From Exiguobacterium sibiricum 7-3 (lineage in GTDB: Bacteria > Bacillota > Bacilli > Exiguobacteriales > Exiguobacteriaceae): a stretch of DNA of 64,000 bases. The stretch lies in the NCBI RefSeq assembly GCF_000620865.1, contig NZ_KK211190.1:1997971-2061970 (forward strand), given 5' to 3'. Made by a program: the position numbers and the translations under genes. Numbering within the stretch: position 1 is the first letter of the stretch; each line of letters begins with the position of its first letter. Shown here one piece after another: positions 17,645 through 26,534 of this stretch. The notes under the pieces were generated by a model that was not told the origin of the DNA, ran no database searches, and saw only the letters and a program-made list of their open reading frames with translations.

Positions 17645-17777
17645 GTTCTGTACTCCTCCTCTAATCCCAATACAATTCATTTACTGTACCACAACGTCTG
17701 GCCCGAATGCGCTTTTGACGACGTAAAAAGACCAATCCTCTTTTCTGACAAGTGGATTGATCAAGTGAGTTTGTTGC

Positions 17778-18314
17778 TCAGACATTCGTCTGACTTTTTT
17801 TTATTTCTTCCATCGCCCAGTCGCACCAGTCAAGATAATTCAGCATCATCCGTAAGCCGTATTCACTCGTCAAGGTTTCGCCAAGCGTTGCCCCGTTCTC
17901 TAAATGATCTTTTCGCCAGACCTTCATCATATCGACGGCAAACTGATGATGCCGCTTCGATTCTTCCAAATACAGAATCGCTTCATCCGGCGGTAACAGA
18001 TGCAATAACGATACCCGCATCAAATTTTCATCTTTCATCTTCGGCTTGAATTCACTTGGTGCACGCAACCAGGCGACAAGTGCCGTTTGACCCGCTTCCG
18101 TAATCGAATAGACTTTTTTATCCGGTAAGTCTTCTTGGACGATATAAACACTCGTCACAAGCTGATCGTCTTCCATCTTCAACAATTCACGGTAAATTTG
18201 TGTATGATGCGCCGTCCAAAAATGTGTCATCTGCTTTTTGAACGTCGTACTTAAATCATATCCGGTCGCTTCTCCTTGAGTTAGCAGTCCGAGCAATGCA
18301 AATCGTAACGCCAC
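17778..18314 (-). CDS. PadR family transcriptional regulator
   Basis: This 178-residue PadR-type repressor has the N-terminal winged helix ALRFALLGLLTQGEATGYDL with TAHHTQIYRELLKMEDDQLV and the wing DKKVYSITEAGQTALVAWL. The C-terminal half (FKPKMKDENLMRVSLLHLLP) forms the PadR-C helical dimer domain. The GTG at 18314, with AAGGTG six bases before it, gives the normal family start; the GTG at 18323 overlaps that site. The target is unknown, but the neighbouring ynj-like operon is a reasonable candidate. Effectors of this class are usually small aromatics or drugs. Confidence 0.87.
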   Translation of the reverse strand: MALRFALLGLLTQGEATGYDLSTTFKKQMTHFWTAHHTQIYRELLKMEDDQLVTSVYIVQEDLPDKKVYSITEAGQTALVAWLRAPSEFKPKMKDENLMRVSLLHLLPPDEAILYLEESKRHHQFAVDMMKVWRKDHLENGATLGETLTSEYGLRMMLNYLDWCDWAMEEIKKSQTNV

Positions 18315-18403
18315 TGGCTGCACCTTCTTTCATCAAATGTATATATTGTTAATTATCTCAAACAAATGCCCATTATGCTACTTTCTGCCTAGCTTTATCA
18401 TAA

Positions 18404-18449
18404 AAAAGACGAAAGGACTGCCGCAGAAAATAGCGTGACAGTCCTTTCG
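18404..18449 (-). terminator. Terminator at end of ynj-like operon
   Basis: CGAAAGGACTG (18410-18420) pairs with CAGTCCTTTCG (18439-18449). On the minus strand it is followed by TCTTTTTT. It abuts the stop of the Nudix gene. Confidence 0.85.
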
Positions 18450-19043
18450 TTACATTTGTTGTACCCGATATGCCTGAATTCCTTCGTTCACACGCCTCCA
18501 GTATGCAAGCGGATGCGGTACGAATTGATCCCGTCGGATAACTTCTTGATCAATCGTCTTAAACGTCTCTGCCGTCTCGTCTGCCAATCGGGCAAACTCA
18601 GTAATCGGTAAGGCAATCAATCGACTGACCTCTTCTGCTTGCAACCTATACTGTTCCAGCGGCACCGCTGAATCCGTCAGGTACAGATGGACACGTTCAC
18701 GATCCTTTAAGTCCGCTAGTATCAATTCTCCCAGGAAGACACCTAGCGGAACTAACTGATTGAACTGCCGGACGAGACCGATCTCTTCTTCGAGTTCGCG
18801 GATCCCGTCCGCCGGTGTCTCACCTGCGAGCAAATGTCCGGCTGCCGTAATATCAAACAACTCCGGAAAATCTTTTTTCTGTTTCGCCCGTTGTTGCAAC
18901 AAAACGTGTCCTTTGTCGAGATCGATGACAAAACAATGAAACGTTTCATGCCATAATCCGTCCCGGTGTACCGTCTTCCGGGTTGCCGGATACAACGGCT
19001 GACCGGATGAATCGACGACCATCAAGTGTTCCGATTCACTCAT
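18450..19043 (-). CDS. Nudix hydrolase of isopentenyl-isomerase-like (YfcD) type
   Basis: This 197-residue protein resembles the YfcD/Idi-like Nudix subgroup. HRDGLWHETFHCFVID leads into strands, then the Nudix box is visible in AGHLLAGETPADGIRELEEEIG. The length and the HETFH region separate it from ADP-ribose hydrolases. Substrate is unknown; YfcD-type proteins act on nucleoside diphosphate derivatives or remain unassigned. It is the last gene of an eight-gene overlapping operon and overlaps the CDP-alcohol transferase by four bases, which hints at work on a CDP- or NDP-linked compound (inference). Confidence 0.85.
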   Translation of the reverse strand: MSESEHLMVVDSSGQPLYPATRKTVHRDGLWHETFHCFVIDLDKGHVLLQQRAKQKKDFPELFDITAAGHLLAGETPADGIRELEEEIGLVRQFNQLVPLGVFLGELILADLKDRERVHLYLTDSAVPLEQYRLQAEEVSRLIALPITEFARLADETAETFKTIDQEVIRRDQFVPHPLAYWRRVNEGIQAYRVQQM

Positions 19044-19621
19044 CGCAACACCTTCGAAGCTTGATAAAAACGTTCGCCGACGGTGTACAACTCAGCAATC
19101 AAAAAGATGACGGCAATCCAAATGATGGCGCTTGGGAACAGTAACATCGCGGTCAGAAAAAGAAATCCTTCCGTCCGTTCGACAAGACCAGGTTGATACT
19201 GAAATGATTTGAATCCATAATTATCGCTGACCGCTCCAATCGCAAGAAACATCGTCATACCAATGACAAATGAAGCGACGAGTAATAAAATAACGACTTG
19301 CGTCTCCGGAAACCGCAGGGCAATACCAATCAAAACGGATAATTCCACGATTCGATCGAGGACCAGATCAAGAATCGTCCCGATCGGCGTTGTTTTTTCC
19401 CGTCGCGCCATTGTTCCATCGACGACATCAAGCGCTCCGGACAGCCATAATAATAAAATTGCGATTCCCATCATATCGTTATAGACAAAGAAACCGGTCG
19501 AGGCACCAATGATGCCGGAAATGATTGTCACTTGGTTGGCTGAAAGACCCATCTTCTTCAATAATGTCGCCATTTGCTCAAAAAGGGGCTGGACGACTTT
19601 TCTGGCGCGCGTATCTAACAT
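19040..19621 (-). CDS. CDP-alcohol phosphatidyltransferase family membrane protein
   Basis: This 193-residue integral membrane enzyme has the CDP-alcohol transferase signature: Asp65, Asp68-Gly69, Ala72-Arg73, Gly81, Asp85 and Asp89 in DVVDGTMARREKTTPIGTIL and the following D/D pair. The spacing between Arg73 and Gly81 is seven, slightly short of the usual eight or nine. About six membrane helices are visible. Family members transfer a phosphoalcohol between CMP and an acceptor. The E. coli counterpart by context is ynjF, which also follows ynjBCD; its substrate is not established. The gene starts one base after the ATPase stop. Confidence 0.88.
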   Translation of the reverse strand: MLDTRARKVVQPLFEQMATLLKKMGLSANQVTIISGIIGASTGFFVYNDMMGIAILLLWLSGALDVVDGTMARREKTTPIGTILDLVLDRIVELSVLIGIALRFPETQVVILLLVASFVIGMTMFLAIGAVSDNYGFKSFQYQPGLVERTEGFLFLTAMLLFPSAIIWIAVIFLIAELYTVGERFYQASKVLR

Positions 19622-19622
19622 G

Positions 19623-20513
19623 CTACCCCTCCTTTCTCACAAGATAAGCTGTCACCTTTTCGCTGAACGTCTCTGTCGTTTGAACGACAAGCCGCTCTCC
19701 CGTTTGGCGCTCCACTTCATAAAATCGAACACCGTATTGCGTCAGCTCTTTCGTAATCGTAACACGTTCCTGTAATCCATTCGTCGGTCTTAAGACCAAC
19801 TTCACTTCGGATAACGGATACCACTCACCGTCCAGGCGCACTCCGTCGCCAAAGAACGGACTTTTTTCCGCTAACTCAATCGGATGTCCCTGATCAATGA
19901 TTTGTCCCCGCTCCATAACGTAGACATAATCCGCCATTGCCATCGCTTCCTCACGGTCATGCGTGACAAGCAACGTCGTCACACCTTGCGCAACCGTCAA
20001 GCGTCGAATCAGCGTCCGAAGTTCACGGCGGCGCGGTAAATCAAGGCTCGAGAACGGTTCATCCAGCAGCAGGAAATTCGGACTGCTTGCCAAAGCGCGT
20101 GCGAGACTGGCCCGTTGCTGTTCTCCGCCGGATAATTCATGGACAAAGGCATCCGCCCGTCCTGTTAATCCGACTTTAGTTAACCACTCTTGTACGTCCT
20201 GTTGATGACCTGTCGTCATACCAATCCGGATGTTTTGTCCGACCGTCAAATGAGGAAACAGTAACGGACGTTGGAACAACATCGTTACTCCACGTTGATT
20301 CGGAGCGACGTGCGTCATGTCGACTTCACCGAAACGAATGATGCCGTCTGATACTTTCTCAAGACCGGCAATCAACCGTAACAGTGTCGTTTTCCCACTT
20401 CCACTCGGACCAACGAGCGCAACACATTGACCAGACGCAATGCGTAAATCAATTGCCTGCAGGACCTGTTTCTGGCCAAATCGTTTATTGACGTGCTGAA
20501 TCGTAACGTCCAT
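19623..20513 (-). CDS. ABC transporter ATP-binding protein (YnjD-like)
   Basis: This 296-residue importer-type ATPase has Walker A GPSGSGKTTLL, the Q-loop in MLFQRPLLFPHLTVGQN, signature LSGGEQQRASLARAL, Walker B FLLLDEPFSSLD and the H-loop THDREEA. Beyond residue 215 a short C-terminal domain resembles the regulatory tail of molybdate or polyamine type ATPases. It overlaps the second permease gene by 29 bases and is flanked by the other parts of a complete ABC importer, so it powers that uptake system. Substrate is unknown. Confidence 0.92.
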   Translation of the reverse strand: MDVTIQHVNKRFGQKQVLQAIDLRIASGQCVALVGPSGSGKTTLLRLIAGLEKVSDGIIRFGEVDMTHVAPNQRGVTMLFQRPLLFPHLTVGQNIRIGMTTGHQQDVQEWLTKVGLTGRADAFVHELSGGEQQRASLARALASSPNFLLLDEPFSSLDLPRRRELRTLIRRLTVAQGVTTLLVTHDREEAMAMADYVYVMERGQIIDQGHPIELAEKSPFFGDGVRLDGEWYPLSEVKLVLRPTNGLQERVTITKELTQYGVRFYEVERQTGERLVVQTTETFSEKVTAYLVRKEG

Positions 20514-21231
20514 CTAACAGCCTCCGAACTACTTGCACCCATCCTTCTAATAAAATGAGTTGCACAAAATAAATCAATAAAGGTAAAACCAATAACCAAA
20601 TCGTCGCTTCTTTAGCGGCGACCAAGGAATTTCCGGAATAGAGCGGAAACGCTTCAAGCGCAATCATTTGAACGACTCCGCCCCCGATTAAGATAACGAG
20701 CGCATACTGACTCAAAGCGATGACCGTTACGAGTAACGTGACCGATTGGATGGCAGAACGCATCATCGGTCCTGTCAAAAAAAGAAAACGTTTGAAGCGG
20801 CTTGGTTCAATCAACACCATTTGCTCCATCATCTGTTCACCCAGTGCTTGAAACGCATTCGTATAAATCCGAATTGTATATGGTAACGTCGGAAGCAGTA
20901 AAACCAGCAACACACCAATAAATTGATCGGCTAGCCCTAACCGGATCCATGTCAGATAGAGACCAAACGACAATAATAACACCGGTAAGAACAGTGGCAA
21001 ACTGATCAACAGTTCCATATACCGGATGGGTCGCCCCGTCCGAAATGCAATCGCCTTTCCTGTAATATAGCCGATCAAATGATTGAGCAGTGTTAATACG
21101 CCAATCATCGAAACCGTTGTCGTCAAGGTGTCGAACAAACGGGGATTCCAGGTCCAGGTGGACGGAATCAGTCCGAGCAATGGAGCCAGGACCAGCAAAG
21201 CTACTATTACTGTTATTGCCCGTCTTCTCAT
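20485..21231 (-). CDS. ABC transporter permease (YnjC C-terminal half-like)
   Basis: This 248-residue inner-membrane permease has about six hydrophobic segments. The cytoplasmic EAA-type loop is around EQMVLIEPSRFKRFLFLTGP, where the coupling helix contacts the ATPase. The gene overlaps the first permease by ATGA and the ATPase by 29 bases. In E. coli YnjC both permease halves are one chain of roughly 510 residues; here they are two genes. It pairs with the product of 21228-21992. Confidence 0.87.
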   Translation of the reverse strand: MRRRAITVIVALLVLAPLLGLIPSTWTWNPRLFDTLTTTVSMIGVLTLLNHLIGYITGKAIAFRTGRPIRYMELLISLPLFLPVLLLSFGLYLTWIRLGLADQFIGVLLVLLLPTLPYTIRIYTNAFQALGEQMMEQMVLIEPSRFKRFLFLTGPMMRSAIQSVTLLVTVIALSQYALVILIGGGVVQMIALEAFPLYSGNSLVAAKEATIWLLVLPLLIYFVQLILLEGWVQVVRRLLDGRYDSARQ

Positions 21232-21992
21232 TCTACCCGCCCCTTACTGATCCGCTCCGTTAACGGGCGAATCATGCGTGTAAAGATCAATAACAACAAA
21301 AATAAGATTCCAGTCAAGAGAACACTGATGGCAAAAGCTTCCGGTTGGCGGGATAAATCGCCTTGTGTATACAAATCAAACGTATAGACGCCAATCAGCT
21401 TCGGATACGTCACACCGAGCAACGCCGGGACTTCATATGCAAATAAAGTAAAAGCAAAAACAATAAAGGCTGCCTCGAGAACAGGAAACAGCAAAAATAC
21501 TCCTTTTCCATGCCAAAACCGTTTCATGCGCGATAAACCGAGCATCAATCCCAATTCTTCGTACCGGTGATCGAGGCGCCGGTAGACCGGCAACAAATAA
21601 AAAAAGACAAACGGAATTTCTTTGTAGAGATACGTCAAGATGATGCTGAATTGATTCCCTTCATGCGGACCGACGACCGGAAAATCGCTCAAATAAAGAA
21701 TGGCCAAATAGGCTGCACCGAGGTGTGGCAAAAATAACGGAACAGCCAAGAATTGTGTCGTCCATCCTGTTTGCTTGGCGAAAAATCCGGCCAACCACGC
21801 TCCGACCAAAACAGACAGCACCGTACTGCTGACTGCTACATACAAGCTGATGCCGATACTTTCCAAAAATACCGGATCCACGAACAACCGGCTGTAATCT
21901 CCCCAGGTCGTCATCGAAAGACTGACGAAAAGACCGTAGCCGACCATACCGGTAATCAGCAAAGTGGCAGGCCAGGCATTACCGCGCCACAC
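21228..21992 (-). CDS. ABC transporter permease (YnjC N-terminal half-like)
   Basis: This 254-residue permease has an N-terminal membrane segment (WPATLLITGMVGYGLFVSL) and about five others. The EAA-type loop is near EELGLMLGLSRMKRFWHGKG. The GTG start has only a weak ribosome binding site and lies 14 bases inside the 3' end of the binding-protein gene, so it probably depends on translational coupling. With 20485-21231 it forms the heterodimeric channel of the ynj-like importer. Confidence 0.87.
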   Translation of the reverse strand: MWRGNAWPATLLITGMVGYGLFVSLSMTTWGDYSRLFVDPVFLESIGISLYVAVSSTVLSVLVGAWLAGFFAKQTGWTTQFLAVPLFLPHLGAAYLAILYLSDFPVVGPHEGNQFSIILTYLYKEIPFVFFYLLPVYRRLDHRYEELGLMLGLSRMKRFWHGKGVFLLFPVLEAAFIVFAFTLFAYEVPALLGVTYPKLIGVYTFDLYTQGDLSRQPEAFAISVLLTGILFLLLLIFTRMIRPLTERISKGRVE

Positions 21993-23172
21993 GTTCCGGC
22001 CAGTCTTTCCGAATCACATCAAAGAAGGCCGGATCCAGTTCAGCACGGACTTTGCCCTCAAATGCCGCTGGTTTCGGTGTGGATTCCGCCGCCGGAACGT
22101 CTTCAAACGCCTGTTTTTCCGTCGAACTTAACGTCGTCAAATCTAAACTTGTTCCGTCCCCCCAGTACGTGCCGTCAAATTTCTTGAGTTGGGCATCCGG
22201 CGACAATAACGTGTTGACTGTGACTAGTGCTCCATTGGGATTTGGTGCATTAAACGGAATCGACAGGAAATGGGTCGAGGCAATTGAACCCTCGGTCAAG
22301 ACTAGCGGACGTGTCTCTTTCGGGAATGTCCCTGATTTCACTTCCTGTTCCGCCCGACGTTCATTGAAGCCCATCGTGAACGCAACGCTTCCTTTTGCAT
22401 ACAACTGGTCAAGCTGTGCTAACGTCTTCGGATACGTTTTGCCTTCTTTCCATAAATAAGGTTTCAATTCATTTAAATAGGCCCACGTTTTCTTAAAGTC
22501 CGCTTTCGGATCTTTTAACGTTTCTTTCGACTCGACCCCATACATGACGTGGCGGACAAAGGCATTTCCCGTAAAGTCCGTCACTTCCGGATACGTGAAT
22601 TTACCCGGATTTTGTTTGACCCAGCTTTTAAGTTGCTGTAAGTCTTTCGGTGGTTTCGCGACACTGGCTTGATCATAATGGAACGTATATTGAACTTTTC
22701 CCCACGCCGCTTCCAGGTGATCAGTCGGTGTCCCGCTATCCGATCCTTGTGCTTGTGGATCCACGTATTTCATGTTCGGCAACACTTTCGTGATTTCACC
22801 GTATAATAAGCCGTCCTTTTTCGCATTCCGGAAGTTGTCCCCGTTGATCCAGACGACATCAATGACGCCTGTTTTTTTCCCGGCTTTTTTTTCCGCCCGA
22901 AGTTTTTGAATCAAATCAGCTGTTTCAATCGGAACACGCTTTAATGTAATCTTATGCTCTTTTTTCAGCTTCGGTGCTACATATTCATCGATGTAGGCAT
23001 TGATCCCCTCGTCGCCGCCCCACATATACATCCGGACGGTCGTCTCGTTTGCATCTTTTTCAATCGATGTATAAGAAGAACCTAATACTTTTTCCTGAAC
23101 CGGTGCTGCCGGAGACGCACATCCGGCAAGAAACAATCCTGTTGCTGCGATTCCAATCATTTGCTTCATCAT
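21979..23172 (-). CDS. ABC transporter substrate-binding lipoprotein (YnjB-like)
   Basis: This 397-residue extracellular binding protein has a lipoprotein signal with lipobox LAGC (Cys18). The mature part resembles the COG4134 YnjB type of large type II binding proteins (VRMYMWGGDEGINAYIDEYVAPK near the start, DVVWINGDNFRNAKKDG later). The ligand is not known; iron, thiamine and polyamine binders share the fold, but I see no decisive motif. It overlaps the first permease gene by 14 bases and follows an SDR gene by 15 bases. Confidence 0.87.
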   Translation of the reverse strand: MMKQMIGIAATGLFLAGCASPAAPVQEKVLGSSYTSIEKDANETTVRMYMWGGDEGINAYIDEYVAPKLKKEHKITLKRVPIETADLIQKLRAEKKAGKKTGVIDVVWINGDNFRNAKKDGLLYGEITKVLPNMKYVDPQAQGSDSGTPTDHLEAAWGKVQYTFHYDQASVAKPPKDLQQLKSWVKQNPGKFTYPEVTDFTGNAFVRHVMYGVESKETLKDPKADFKKTWAYLNELKPYLWKEGKTYPKTLAQLDQLYAKGSVAFTMGFNERRAEQEVKSGTFPKETRPLVLTEGSIASTHFLSIPFNAPNPNGALVTVNTLLSPDAQLKKFDGTYWGDGTSLDLTTLSSTEKQAFEDVPAAESTPKPAAFEGKVRAELDPAFFDVIRKDWPERVAR

Positions 23173-23187
23173 GTGTAAAAAACCCCT

Positions 23188-23946
23188 TTATTTTTTATCA
23201 AAACCTGACTTACCGAGCCATTCAATGATCCGCGGAAACAGTCCGTAGGCTTTTGCAGAACCTTCCATCCAAAACGGCGCATTGACCTCGCGTTTTTCTC
23301 GGATGATGGCTCGAGTAACCGTTCGTGCCAATTTTTCTTTCGACAACACGATGCTCGCGACATTTTTTTCGTATTTCCGGCTGAGATCCGCCCGAATAAA
23401 AAATTCCGTCGCAATCGGTCCAGGATTGACGGTCATGACATGAAGCCCCTTCGGCTTCAGTTCAAGACGCAAAGCATTGGAAAACTGATATAAGGCTGCT
23501 TTTGTCATACAATAAATCGTCGACTTAGGTGTAGGTAATTTCCCCGCCTGACTCGCCACGTTGACAATCATGCCTTGAGGACGAAACAGCGGGAGACAGG
23601 CTTTCGTCAATCGAATCGGGGCCAGGACGTTGACCCGGTTCATCGATTCGATGGTTTCAACCGTCGTCTCCTCTAAAAAACTGAACTCCCCGAAACCGGC
23701 GTTATTAATTAATACATCAATCATGCCATACCGCTCGGCGATTTGATCAGCCAGACGCTCCGGTGAATGTTCTAAATCATAGACAACGTATTCCGCTTGC
23801 AGTGTCTTTGCGACCTGTTGCAACCGATCTTCCCGCCGGGCGACTAAGATCAAGTTTGCTCCATGCCGATTCAGCTCGTATGCGAGGGCTTCCCCGAGAC
23901 CGCTGGAGGCACCGGTCAAGACAACCGTTTTATTCATGAGATTCAT
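23188..23946 (-). CDS. SDR family NAD(P)-dependent oxidoreductase
   Basis: This classical short-chain dehydrogenase of about 252 residues has the cofactor motif TGASSGLGEAL, the NNAG motif (LINNAGFGEF), Ser in NVASQAG, and catalytic YCMTK (Tyr-x3-Lys). The first basic residues after the glycine motif (VARRED) suggest NADP(H). Substrate is unknown. The ATG at 23946 has AAAGGG eight bases upstream and overlaps the upstream metallo-hydrolase gene by 17 bases, so it belongs to the same transcript as the ynj-like operon. Confidence 0.9.
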   Translation of the reverse strand: MNLMNKTVVLTGASSGLGEALAYELNRHGANLILVARREDRLQQVAKTLQAEYVVYDLEHSPERLADQIAERYGMIDVLINNAGFGEFSFLEETTVETIESMNRVNVLAPIRLTKACLPLFRPQGMIVNVASQAGKLPTPKSTIYCMTKAALYQFSNALRLELKPKGLHVMTVNPGPIATEFFIRADLSRKYEKNVASIVLSKEKLARTVTRAIIREKREVNAPFWMEGSAKAYGLFPRIIEWLGKSGFDKK

Positions 23947-24916
23947 GTCCACTGCCCTTTCTCGTATACCGTAAAATCCCGTCTTGTTTTTCGACAACAA
24001 TCTGTCCACTGGCCACAAGGTAGTCGAGGCGTGCTTTCATCTCACTCATGACGAGCGGGAACGATTTCTTCAAACGGTTTCCGTATGTCACTTGCGCGAG
24101 TTCAAACAACGTTTTTGTTCCCTCGATATGTTTCAACAACTGTTCGCCCCGCGCTTTACGTTGCAACAGACGTTCTTCAATCAAGGACGGGACATCGCGA
24201 ATCGGCTCGCCGTGTCCGGTATAGGCAATCTCAATCCGTTCGCCTTGCAGTTTACGGAGGGAACGCATGTAAGCGAGGACCGGTCGTTTCATGTCCGATT
24301 CATCTCCGGGTTGCGGTTGCTCGAGCAACGGATTGGGTTCGACGCGCGCCAACAGGTGATCTGCTGCAAACAGGACTCCTGACTGACTGAGGATACCGAT
24401 TTGATCGCTGGCATGACCCGGTAATTCGAGTACACGGTAGTCGCCTGACGCCGTAATGGCATCCCCTTCTTGCAGGGTATGATCCAGCTGTCCCTTTCCG
24501 AGCCATTTCAAAGCGGATAAATAACTCGGTAACAGCGCACGTATTTCGTCCGGTACACCAAATGACAACGCCAACCGTTGCAGGAAGTCATCCCCGTTGC
24601 TCAAAAAGGCTTGATCTTGTTCTAAGTATGGTCTCAGACGGGCATGTCCATGAATCGGAATCCCCTGTTCAGAAAAACGATAGGCGAGTCCGGCATGATC
24701 TGCATGATGGTGCGTCACGATTACTTTATCGAGCATCGAAACCGTCACTCCGATTTTCCCGAGACCCTCTTGCATCTCTTGCCAGGCTTGATCCGTATCC
24801 GGACCACAATCGATTAAAATGGTTTCCGTTCCGGTCCGTAACAGATAACAATTGATATCTCCGACAGGAAACGGTGTCGGAATGGGTAAAGTAAAGATTT
24901 CATCTTCTCGTCGCAT
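23930..24916 (-). CDS. MBL-fold metallo-hydrolase
   Basis: This 328-residue metallo-beta-lactamase-fold protein has the zinc motif THHHADHAG, a further His in LPGHASDQIG, Asp in LFAADHLL and His in YTGHGEPI, all expected metal ligands. The C-terminal tail resembles the winged-helix extension of the LACTB2/YflN-like hydrolases (VASGQIVVEKQDGILRYT). Substrate is unknown, perhaps a thioester or lactone. It is the first gene of the eight-gene operon, with GAGGGG before its ATG. Confidence 0.88.
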   Translation of the reverse strand: MRREDEIFTLPIPTPFPVGDINCYLLRTGTETILIDCGPDTDQAWQEMQEGLGKIGVTVSMLDKVIVTHHHADHAGLAYRFSEQGIPIHGHARLRPYLEQDQAFLSNGDDFLQRLALSFGVPDEIRALLPSYLSALKWLGKGQLDHTLQEGDAITASGDYRVLELPGHASDQIGILSQSGVLFAADHLLARVEPNPLLEQPQPGDESDMKRPVLAYMRSLRKLQGERIEIAYTGHGEPIRDVPSLIEERLLQRKARGEQLLKHIEGTKTLFELAQVTYGNRLKKSFPLVMSEMKARLDYLVASGQIVVEKQDGILRYTRKGSGHESHE

Positions 24917-25045
24917 CGATAAACCCCTCTTCTCTCTGGATGGTTTCCTTCATTATAGAGAGAAAGAAGCGACAGCGGCAAACTTTGTCGCCCTCAAATC
25001 ACTAAACCTCTAAAAAGAATACGGCGGACGACAGCATTTGGATGC

Positions 25046-25082
25046 AAAAAAGCGACCTTTCCGCAGATTGAAAGGTCGCTTT
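25046..25082 (-). terminator. Terminator after gapN
   Basis: AAAGCGACCTTTC pairs with GAAAGGTCGCTTT around an eight-base loop. On the minus strand a run of six Ts follows. The rest of 24917-25094 contains no gene that I can see. Confidence 0.9.
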
Positions 25083-25094
25083 GATCAAACTATC

Positions 25095-26534
25095 TTATTT
25101 TAAGTTAAGAACTGTTAATTTATCGCGTGTCATGGAAGCAAGACTTCGTCCGACACCTTGTACACCAAGACCCGATGATTTTACACCGATGAATGGGAAG
25201 TGATCGGGACCACGTTCCGTCCGACCATTAATTTGGACAGAACCTGTTTCAAGCGCATCTGCAACACTGAACGCTGCGTCGATGTTTTCCGTGAAGACAC
25301 TTGCTTGAAGACCGTATTCCGATTCATTCGCATACGCGATCATTTCCTCGACCGAGTTGACACGAATGACAGGTAAGACCGGTCCGAACGGTTCTTCCCA
25401 TGCAATCCGCATATCACGTGTGACATGGTCAAACAATGTTGGTTCGATCAAGTTTGCCGTCCGGTTTCCACCTGTGACGAGTGTTGCGCCTTTTTCGTTC
25501 GCATCCGTAATCAGACCTTCGACGAAATCAGCTGACTTCGCATCGATCAACGGTACGACAACACTTTCGTCTTCCGGTGAACCGACTGTCAATTTCGCGA
25601 TTCGAGCAGACAATTCTGCGACGAGGGCATCTGCCTGAGGTTCAAGAACAAATACACGTTTAATTGCTGTGCAACGTTGTCCGGAATACGAAAACGCACC
25701 GCTGATGATGTGATCTGCCGCTAGCGAGAGATCCGCATCCTCAAGAACGAGGGCCGGGTCTTTCCCGCCAAGTTCGAGAACGAGTGGAATCATCGACGAT
25801 TGACGCGAGAGATGTTGTCCCGTCGCTGTACCACCTGTGAACGTAATCATGTTGATGCCGGGGTGAGCTGTCAAATAATCACCGATGACCGATCCGCGAC
25901 CGGTTACGAGATTGACGAGTCCTGCCGGCAGACCAGCTGCGACAAGTGCTTCAACCATCAATGTACCGCTGATCGAACCTTGTGTTGCCGGTTTGAAGAC
26001 AACTGCGTTTCCGGTCATCAAGGCAGGTGCCAGTTTCGCCGCTGCGAGGTTGACCGGATAGTTAAACGGTGAAATCGCAAGTACGACACCAAGCGGTGCT
26101 TTTTTGATGATGGCGATTTTTTTCGCACTTCCGCCCGGGAACGAGTCCCCTTGCATCATCTGACCGTCAAAACGGAGGCCTTCTTCTGCTGTATAACGGA
26201 TGATTTCTGCCGTCCGTTTCACTTCTTTGATTCCGTCAGCAAGTCCTTTACCAACTTCACGCATAATGACTTCGCCGATTTCGTCCGCACGCTTTTCAAG
26301 TTCCGTTGCCCACGCATGAAGCAATTCGGCCCGTTTATTGGCAGGGACTTTCGCCCATTCTGCCTGCGCTGTTTTAGCAGACGCAATTGCCCGGTCTACT
26401 TCTGATTTTGTCATCGCTTGGACACGACCGACTGTATCTTCTTTATAAGGGGAAGAAATTTCAATGGTTTCATTGGATTCACTTTCCTGCCATTGTCCAT
26501 CTAATAAGTATGTGTATGTTGTTGCTGTAGTCAT
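25095..26534 (-). CDS. gapN: NADP-dependent glyceraldehyde-3-phosphate dehydrogenase (non-phosphorylating)
   Basis: This 479-residue aldehyde dehydrogenase of the GapN type oxidises glyceraldehyde 3-phosphate to 3-phosphoglycerate with NADP, bypassing one ATP-yielding step but giving NADPH. The catalytic Cys288 lies in FSYSGQRCTAIKRV, the GapN-typical context, and the general base Glu254 in LVLELGGKDP. The cofactor region ISPFNYPVNLAAAKLAPAL is conserved. GGAGG lies nine bases before the ATG. It stands alone with its own terminator. Confidence 0.93.
   Translation of the reverse strand: MTTATTYTYLLDGQWQESESNETIEISSPYKEDTVGRVQAMTKSEVDRAIASAKTAQAEWAKVPANKRAELLHAWATELEKRADEIGEVIMREVGKGLADGIKEVKRTAEIIRYTAEEGLRFDGQMMQGDSFPGGSAKKIAIIKKAPLGVVLAISPFNYPVNLAAAKLAPALMTGNAVVFKPATQGSISGTLMVEALVAAGLPAGLVNLVTGRGSVIGDYLTAHPGINMITFTGGTATGQHLSRQSSMIPLVLELGGKDPALVLEDADLSLAADHIISGAFSYSGQRCTAIKRVFVLEPQADALVAELSARIAKLTVGSPEDESVVVPLIDAKSADFVEGLITDANEKGATLVTGGNRTANLIEPTLFDHVTRDMRIAWEEPFGPVLPVIRVNSVEEMIAYANESEYGLQASVFTENIDAAFSVADALETGSVQINGRTERGPDHFPFIGVKSSGLGVQGVGRSLASMTRDKLTVLNLK

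Follow-up and report, generated by a model that had tools for sequence, protein, structure and literature searches.

Organization of the operon

We analyzed a window of 64,000 nt from Exiguobacterium sibiricum 7-3, on which all positions below are counted. It carries an operon that encodes a YnjBCD-type ATP-binding cassette (ABC) transporter together with a YnjF-type CDP-alcohol phosphatidyltransferase. Open reading frames (ORFs) and Pfam and NCBIfam matches define eight tightly packed genes, all on the minus strand, that run from 24916 down to 18450. The first encodes an MBL-fold metallohydrolase of 328 aa (23930..24916; PF00753, 73.6 bits), and the second a short-chain dehydrogenase (SDR) of 252 aa counted from an ATG at 23946 (23188..23946; PF00106, 156.5 bits). 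Next come the genes for a YnjB-family substrate-binding lipoprotein with the lipobox LAGC, recognized by eye (21979..23172), ABC permease A, which begins with GTG (21228..21992), ABC permease B (20485..21231), and an ABC ATPase that is a longer homologue of YnjD (19623..20513; PF00005, 121 bits). Both permeases match YnjC and score below the PF00528 cut-off of 26.4 bits (23.7 bits for A and 23.2 for B). The CDP-alcohol phosphatidyltransferase gene (19040..19621; PF01066, 43.9 bits) is followed by the last gene, which encodes a Nudix-fold protein (18450..19043).

The SDR start codon lies inside the MBL gene, whose stop codon ends at 23930, an overlap of 17 nt. Overlaps of 14, 4, and 29 nt join YnjB to permease A, permease A to permease B, and permease B to the ATPase, respectively, and 4 nt are shared by the CDP-alcohol and Nudix genes. 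Only 15 nt separate the SDR gene from YnjB, and a single nucleotide lies between the ATPase and CDP-alcohol genes. The first-pass annotation of this DNA had described overlapping genes with a 17-base overlap between the MBL and SDR genes, and its coordinates, strand, and gene families hold; taken as a whole, its observation was partly confirmed. A sigma-70-like promoter candidate (TTGCCG-18-TATAAT, 10 of 12 matches; 24952..24981, minus strand) is the single one in front of the operon; a scan of 17700-25200 returned 20 such sites, against a mean of 8.6 in shuffled sequences. At the other end, a terminator-like stem-loop on the minus strand was read from the sequence (18402..18449; 11-bp stem, 18-nt loop, then a T run) and was not listed by a hairpin search that allowed loops of up to 8 nt. 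Rfam at gathering scores gave no match in the window.

The transporter belongs to the YnjBCD family

The window YnjB is a member of the NF008633/COG4134 family (424.4 bits; curated cut-off, 203). It is 35% identical to E. coli YnjB (2e-68), and its closest named homologues, from Exiguobacterium, are 93-94% identical to it. The ATPase is 32% identical to E. coli YnjD (8e-28). Permease A matches both halves of E. coli YnjC, at residues 35-237 (211-residue match, 4e-5) and 373-448 (76 residues, 2e-8), and permease B matches the C-terminal half (residues 362-508, 3e-8). With YnjC- and YnjD-related permeases and ATPase adjoining the binding protein, the system is a YnjBCD transporter. The permease, one chain in E. 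coli, had been described as two chains in the window, which is correct, but the split is ordinary: two chains are the usual form in the mapped Bacillota loci, and a single permease ORF of >500 aa was found at only 7 of 98 distinct Bacillota loci outside Exiguobacterium (L125, which is the genome of L153, and L154, L156, L158, L165, L172, and L208).

The AlphaFold model of the window YnjB had a pLDDT of 91.8. Its top Foldseek matches in the PDB were Salmonella STM0429, a Campylobacter protein, and the hexose-phosphate binder AfuA, and VIA-align placed binders of maltose, trehalose, sulfoquinovosyl-glycerol, and glycerophosphocholine together with STM0429 at Z 27.0-28.5. These near-ties, among sugar, polyamine, phosphate-sugar, and metal-citrate binders, all fall in one large fold class. 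A phmmer search of YnjB against PDB sequences (E 0.01) returned nothing, and phage records held no match to E. coli YnjB. The transporters that NCBIfam finds similar to the ATPase and permeases include those for 2-aminoethylphosphonate. Importers of 2-aminoethylphosphonate, hexose phosphate, polyamines, and thiamine have the transporter type and the binding-protein fold in common with the window system; all of their NCBIfam models shown score under cut-off for the window proteins.

The ydjXYZ-ynjABCD-ynjE-ynjF region of E. coli K-12 encodes a homologous binding protein, permease, ATPase, and YnjF. It also has two VTT genes and genes for YdjY, the AhpD-like YnjA, and the rhodanese YnjE, none of which is present in the window operon; these additional genes recur at other YnjB loci. 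The MBL and SDR genes are absent from the E. coli region. The first-pass annotation had read the window genes as following the order of an E. coli ynjBCD...ynjF-nudG unit. That comparison is half right: MG1655 has ynjE between ynjBCD and ynjF and carries ynjF in the other orientation, all window genes share one strand, and nudG is not orthologous to the window Nudix gene.

The CDP-alcohol phosphatidyltransferase is of the YnjF type

The window enzyme matches E. coli YnjF over its full length (31% identity over 181 residues, 1e-17) and has an intact catalytic motif, D65..D68G..AR..G81...D85...D89; motif and match together assign it to the YnjF subfamily. To describe this subfamily, 145 enzyme sequences were reduced to 96 by dropping all Exiguobacterium rows but two, and then to 93 distinct rows after removal of duplicate genomes. 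The catalytic motif was complete in all 93. Positions F125, L126, K138, E148, E151, and T180 are invariant in the subfamily, and a conserved segment, K138-x-F-x-Y-Q-x-G, is specific to it. A profile that we built from 14 YnjF-type enzymes gave 293 bits for the window enzyme and, in the genome survey described below, separated 23 genomes (≥163 bits) from the rest (≤61 bits).

The closest named relatives are archaetidylinositol-phosphate synthase and phosphatidylinositol-phosphate (PIP) synthase. These PF01066 enzymes share the catalytic motif and an ER.E segment with YnjF and are its best NCBIfam and PDB sequence matches, but they lack its K138 segment and their models score below cut-off. The window enzyme was rejected as an archaetidylinositol-phosphate synthase at 90.1 bits (NF040950; cut-off 180) and as a PIP synthase at 60.1 bits (NF045883; cut-off 170). 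In the PIP synthase of M. tuberculosis (MtPIPS), R155 binds inositol phosphate, and mutation of either R155 or R195 severely reduces activity (PMC4634129). The position of R155 was never arginine in the 93 distinct YnjF-type rows, being G in 72, T in 16, A in 4, and C in 1, which also counts against a PIP synthase. Because this position is G, T, A, or C, the acceptor of YnjF is probably not a phospho-alcohol bound in the manner of inositol phosphate. R184, which was kept in 91 of 93 rows, is the likely equivalent of R195 by position alone, as the HMMER alignment ends before it.

YnjF rarely occurs without YnjB

Co-occurrence was assessed in 398 Bacillota genomes drawn across the phylum, using the NF008633 cut-off for YnjB and ≥163 bits for YnjF. 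YnjB was over cut-off in 30 genomes and a YnjF-type enzyme was present in 23, with both in 21 (Fisher p 8e-26, relatedness ignored). Only 2 of 23 genomes with YnjF lacked YnjB, and 9 of 30 genomes with YnjB lacked YnjF. YnjF alone was present in G139 and in G314, where the match is partial, and YnjB alone in nine genomes (G122, G126, G161, G164, G202, G225, G253, G298, and G455). Eight of the nine encode a nucleoside hydrolase and/or an APH kinase at the locus; that of G161 lies at a contig end. In G139 a partial YnjF lies about 1.6 kb from fragments of YnjB, of which two contain a stop codon (C1:1258542-1261578), and the pair is seemingly decaying together.

Gene neighborhoods were read at 153 Bacillota loci, comprising 45 from relatives of the window genome, 28 further loci drawn across the phylum, and 80 named loci. 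The named loci were the 80, out of 575 confirmed, that most resemble the window, and hence lean to Bacillales. Seventeen of them repeat genomes of the other sets (all 14 from Exiguobacterium, and L153, L170, and L213), and removal of duplicates left 136 of the 153 loci and, outside Exiguobacterium, 79 of 81 loci with full flanks, defined as at least 6.5 kb on both sides of YnjB. ORF calling favored long frames and missed some genes, so that presence counts are lower bounds; YnjF of L095 was recovered by tblastn, the Nudix gene of L075 was likewise recovered, and several high-GC plasmid loci were read by tblastn.

YnjF lay within 8 kb of YnjB at all 45 relatives (including L095), at 18 of 28 phylum-drawn loci, and at 70 of 80 named loci, where 22 of 29 genus labels had at least one YnjF-linked locus. 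After duplicates were removed it was near YnjB at 116 of 136 loci, at 78 of 98 outside Exiguobacterium, and at 65 of the 79 distinct full-flank loci outside Exiguobacterium (hereafter the 79 full-flank loci). By chance, the three CDP-alcohol transferase genes of the 3.08-Mb window genome would give about 0.016 per 16 kb. The pair was also found in Alpha- and Gammaproteobacteria and in Fusobacteriota. At 20 plasmid loci, which were picked by hand and not at random from two 75-record lists so as to cover a wide range, YnjF was near YnjB in 15, on the same strand in 14 of these; the five loci without YnjF were from two Deinococcus, Peptoclostridium, Paracoccus, and one S. meliloti.

Import and CDP-alcohol chemistry had been suggested to be linked, with co-occurrence of YnjB and CDP-alcohol transferases as the proposed check. 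In Bacillota that association was found, and the genes are neighbors across phyla. The YnjBCD-YnjF link is much wider than the two groups in which it was first noted. The survey that had been named as a possible refutation divided the claim: the CDP-alcohol gene is widely linked to ynjBCD and the Nudix gene is not (see below). The interpretation offered by the first-pass annotation is, overall, partly supported.

In one draft genome (84% complete), YnjF and YnjB read as one frame of 556 aa (L106:7983-9653), in which the last segment of YnjF is missing and the joint has a lipobox-like ACS. We did not use it as a Rosetta-stone fusion, as fusion, deletion, or assembly error are each possible. The module of an IncC plasmid is part of an island (L216:1904-14041) with DUF692/DUF2282, DoxX, a sigma-70 family factor, carboxymuconolactone decarboxylase family, and haloacid dehalogenase genes; this copy probably also accounts for the 20 plasmid rows H7-H26, which are 67% identical to E. 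coli YnjB.

Neighbors of the pair and loci without YnjF

Elsewhere, VTT proteins are as common a neighbor of YnjB as YnjF is. A VTT/TVP38 gene was present at 67 of the 79 full-flank loci and an oxidoreductase, of any of the three kinds sought, at 64; rhodanese (18 loci), LPG-synthase TM region (9), and YdjY (7) genes were less frequent. At 6 of 20 plasmid loci, TVP38 and a flavin adenine dinucleotide (FAD)-dependent oxidoreductase form one fusion protein, annotated in an E. coli IncC plasmid, Pseudoalteromonas, Catenovulum, and Pseudooceanicola and detected by tblastn in Aeromonas and Ciceribacter. The commonest fusions of COG0398 DedA proteins are to oxidoreductase (Pyr_redox) domains, and these proteins are argued to resemble phospholipid scramblases (PMC10127716); the bifunctional TVP38/FAD-dependent oxidoreductase annotated in several plasmid YnjB loci resembles such fusions. 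The accessible passages of that paper do not mention YnjBCD or YnjF, and "CDP" occurs 0 times in its main text. Among plasmid loci, that of Deinococcus taeanensis has a lysophospholipid acyltransferase gene overlapping the YnjB start, and in two Alteromonadales a sterol desaturase family gene follows YnjF.

At the 14 full-flank loci without YnjF, an APH kinase was present at 6, a nucleoside hydrolase at 6, and at least one of them at 8; neither was found at any of the 65 full-flank loci with YnjF. These calls were checked with Pfam, except for the kinases of L112 and L116, which were assigned by our own profile. A phmmer search of the L108 APH kinase against PDB sequences returned nothing. Downstream of YnjD, loci L112, L114, L116, L120, and L123 carry a TIGR04283 ("arsenosugar") gene, a DUF2064/TIGR04282-like gene, and an APH kinase; their genomes have no ArsS over cut-off, and the "arsenosugar" family names may mislead. 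YnjB or distant relatives lie near a nucleoside hydrolase, without YnjF, at L222, L229, L126, and L133, which may mark a nucleoside-importing branch.

Several other neighbors were observed. A GrdB/PrdB-related protein of 154-172 aa is encoded near YnjB at nine loci (L063, L155, L167, L175, L184, L187, L191, L200, and L206), several of which also carry YdjY and LPG-synthase-TM genes. At L189 (6409-8301) a MerA/Lpd-like oxidoreductase fused to DUF1499 is followed by VTT and YnjBCD genes, with YnjF and a TIGR03169-like oxidoreductase divergent; Planococcus loci have a frame of 627-644 aa at the same place, L189 alone having been tested. The window genome encodes a TIGR03169-like oxidoreductase, a frequent neighbor of YnjB elsewhere, far from the operon (G000:C7:1479366-1480388; 232 bits, cut-off 310), and it has 12 VTT matches away from the operon.

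Mostly local additions: the Nudix, MBL, and SDR genes

A Nudix gene was present at the operon in all 19 genomes of the genus label of the window (g1). In the sister label g2, a Nudix homologue (40-45%) was located elsewhere in 6 of 6 sampled genomes, and the g2 operons have a flavin oxidoreductase at the end where g1 has the Nudix gene; the one tested, L087, relates to TIGR03169 (76 bits, cut-off 310). Four Bacilli genomes with no YnjB above the cut-off (G040, G043, G045, and G051) have homologues as well. The window-type Nudix gene was found at none of the 79 full-flank loci and none of the 20 plasmid loci, and a NudG-type gene at none of the 79 and at one plasmid locus (Klebsiella). The first-pass annotation had included nucleotide clean-up in the conserved function, which these counts do not support. 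The Nudix gene is a passenger, an addition of one Exiguobacterium genus.

Nor is the protein of the YfcD type, as had been claimed: it scores 41.6 bits against the YfcD model NF011922 (cut-off 152), although YfcD (2fkb) is its nearest PDB sequence (1e-5), so that it is a relative and not a member by score. It was likewise rejected as an isopentenyl-diphosphate isomerase (NF002995; 57.9 bits, cut-off 127) and as an orthologue of E. coli NudG, a 135-aa protein of another Nudix subtype that it matches over 53 residues (E 0.11). The textbook Nudix box has the consensus GX5EX7REUXEEXGU. The window protein departs from it, though its PF00293 domain scores 44.6 bits against a cut-off of 21.1: all 25 rows, from 18 distinct genomes (the window and 17 others), have six residues and not seven between E and RE. 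Judged from this shortened box, pyrophosphohydrolase activity may be altered or lost.

MBL and SDR genes were each near YnjB at 38 of the 45 relatives, these being the 38 Exiguobacterium loci, and at none of the 28 phylum-drawn loci; among the 79 full-flank loci, MBL was found at 6 and SDR at 3. They are mostly Exiguobacterium-local additions. We regard all three extras, Nudix included, as local additions to the core unit.

Proposed function and alternatives

We propose, with moderate confidence, that YnjBCD imports a small alcohol or riboside to which YnjF attaches a phosphatidyl group from CDP-diacylglycerol, the pump supplying the acceptor of the enzyme. The proposal starts from the genes, their order, the motifs, the co-occurrence, and the alternative enzymes, all of which were observed. 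The YnjB lipoprotein would bind a small hydroxyl-bearing compound outside the membrane, and the two YnjC-like permeases with YnjD would import it, a direction suggested by the binding lipoprotein. One and the same compound, probably without a phosphate, would pass from pump to enzyme, the two together forming the core of the operon as a salvage-to-membrane unit. YnjF, in the membrane, would transfer the phosphatidyl group of CDP-diacylglycerol to a hydroxyl of the compound, and the product would be a phospholipid whose headgroup is unusual. The module would be completed in most other lineages by flavin disulphide-type oxidoreductases and by a TVP38/DedA protein, presumably scramblase-like and of the COG0398 kind, which might distribute this lipid over both sides of the bilayer. 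In Bacillota that lack YnjF and lie outside the class of the window (by the kinship label of the genome set, not by class names), the compound would instead be routed via a nucleoside hydrolase and/or a kinase resembling APH and choline kinases.

A pump that feeds the enzyme is suggested by the asymmetry of the survey, YnjF being hardly found without YnjB and YnjB often without YnjF. The replacement enzymes and the lipid-type neighbors add to the case that the pump supplies the YnjF acceptor. The Lic1-type choline system combines an importer with an APH-family choline kinase and a cytidylyltransferase. It resembles the YnjF-less variant, in which an importer is joined by an APH-family kinase and a CofC-like (DUF2064) transferase; its importer is of another type, the CofC-like protein is not known to act as a cytidylyltransferase, and the window uses YnjF instead of the kinase route.

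Several observations weigh against this proposal, chief among them six loci without YnjF or a substitute, the strand of the E. coli gene, and the oxidoreductases. Loci L160, L176, L188, L190, L203, and L215 carry YnjB and VTT without YnjF, kinase, or hydrolase, and the pump therefore does without them there. The ynjF gene is on the opposite strand at 17 of the 98 distinct Bacillota loci outside Exiguobacterium, as in E. coli and Klebsiella. Simple lipid assembly does not account for the oxidoreductases and rhodaneses. YnjF, a kinase, and both transferases occur together at L114, a locus with less than full flanks; the two routes are therefore not mutually exclusive. At YnjF-less loci the nucleoside hydrolase may be on the opposite strand (L110 and L112) or upstream (L116). 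None of the 38 Exiguobacterium loci has a VTT gene, and the 6 of 45 relatives that have one are not Exiguobacterium. On a tree built to ask whether the YnjF-type enzymes are a single clade, the group needed 3 changes, with outgroup branches that are too long for this question, at 7-8 changes per column. The predicted structure of YnjB names no ligand and, as a model, excludes nothing within its fold class. Finally, co-location is no proof of a shared compound.

An extended form of the proposal is speculative, and we consider it improbable. It holds that the pair is a widespread and so far undescribed salvage route that lipidates an imported riboside or polyol into a new bacterial headgroup, such as a phosphatidyl-riboside or phosphatidyl-nucleoside, with a COG0398 scramblase spreading the lipid, and that in the hydrolase and kinase versions this compound takes a catabolic or other path.

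The strongest alternative, unlikely but a serious contender, is that YnjBCD and YnjF act on different compounds and are co-regulated in envelope or redox stress, within a theme of membrane and thiol repair (TVP38, flavin reductases, rhodanese, AhpD, and Msr). The frequency of oxidoreductase and VTT neighbors fits it. So do the MsrA, MsrB, and carboxymuconolactone decarboxylase family genes that precede a Metabacillus plasmid copy and the sigma-70 family factor, carboxymuconolactone decarboxylase, and DoxX genes around the IncC copy. In E. coli, where ynjABCD is weakly induced on BaeR overproduction, ynjA rises 1.6-fold and ynjB 1.4-fold (PMC2731931), and a ciprofloxacin screen shows a ynjB deletion with a "-" mark above tolerant mutants (PMC13131330). 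However, that 21 of 23 YnjF genomes keep YnjB is tighter than a shared stress needs, and the Exiguobacterium g1 operons have neither a flavin oxidoreductase nor a VTT gene beside YnjBCD-YnjF.

It is improbable that YnjF is a phospho-alcohol enzyme like the PIP and archaetidylinositol-phosphate synthases and that the pump imports a phosphorylated or phosphonate alcohol. Those two families are its closest NCBIfam models, 2-aminoethylphosphonate transporters are among the systems that the ATPase and permeases resemble, the top structural matches of YnjB include STM0429 and AfuA, and R184 sits at about the position of MtPIPS R195 in nearly all rows. Yet both models stay far under their cut-offs, the R155 equivalent is never arginine, and little separates the structural matches, which share one large fold class.

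A role in handling selenium, tellurium, or arsenic, such as selenite uptake or arsenosugar synthesis, is very unlikely. It draws on neighbors of the TIGR03169 (N-terminal to SelD), ExtH-like rhodanese, GrdB/PrdB-like, and TIGR04282/TIGR04283 families and on SelD, present in 27 of 30 YnjB genomes and 259 of 398 overall (Fisher p 0.002, relatedness uncorrected), an enrichment that is weak because the base rate in the phylum is high. No SelD was over cut-off in the window genome (best 1.2e-9) or in G019, G039, G080, and G342, all of which have YnjB; ArsS (TIGR04167) was over cut-off in none of 14 YnjB genomes, including that of the window and five with TIGR04283 beside YnjD; and the binding-protein family is of the organic-solute kind. 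The selenium and arsenosugar readings are unsupported for the window genome and are not needed for the core function.

That importer, CDP-alcohol enzyme, and Nudix protein form one conserved pathway common with E. coli is largely refuted and can hardly be right, for although the window gene order speaks for it, as does a Nudix gene of some kind next to ynjF in E. coli and Klebsiella, the two Nudix proteins are not orthologous and the window-type gene is missing from the 79 full-flank and the 20 plasmid loci and unlinked in the sampled g2 genomes.

Significance

In the E. coli K-12 record, YnjBCD and YnjF carry "putative" or domain names only. A literature search that covered few subscription journals found no paper tying YnjBCD to YnjF in the text accessible to it, and the text matches for "ynjf" looked, judging by their titles, like chance strings. 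The accessible parts of other reports touch single components. The ynjBCD transporter is called uncharacterised, and enriched in one clade, in a Marinobacter pangenomics paper; the tables of a transporter-knockout screen hold ynjB and ydjX, with no comment seen in the accessible text (PMC9405208); a Sinorhizobium expression table lists a TVP38/TMEM64 gene adjoining merA1 (PMC12445080); and YdjX and YdjZ are DedA proteins and ynjE was tested as a sulfurtransferase knockout (PMC7818093, PMC12042036).

Our survey sets the core pair apart from its local passengers, the Nudix, MBL, and SDR genes, and places DedA-type proteins and flavin reductases in the YnjBCD-YnjF neighborhood. The near-obligate partnership across phyla gives both orphans, YnjBCD and YnjF, one testable job. 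That an uptake pump is usually encoded near YnjF suggests that an imported compound is built into the membrane, and it hints at a phospholipid headgroup that may never have been sought.

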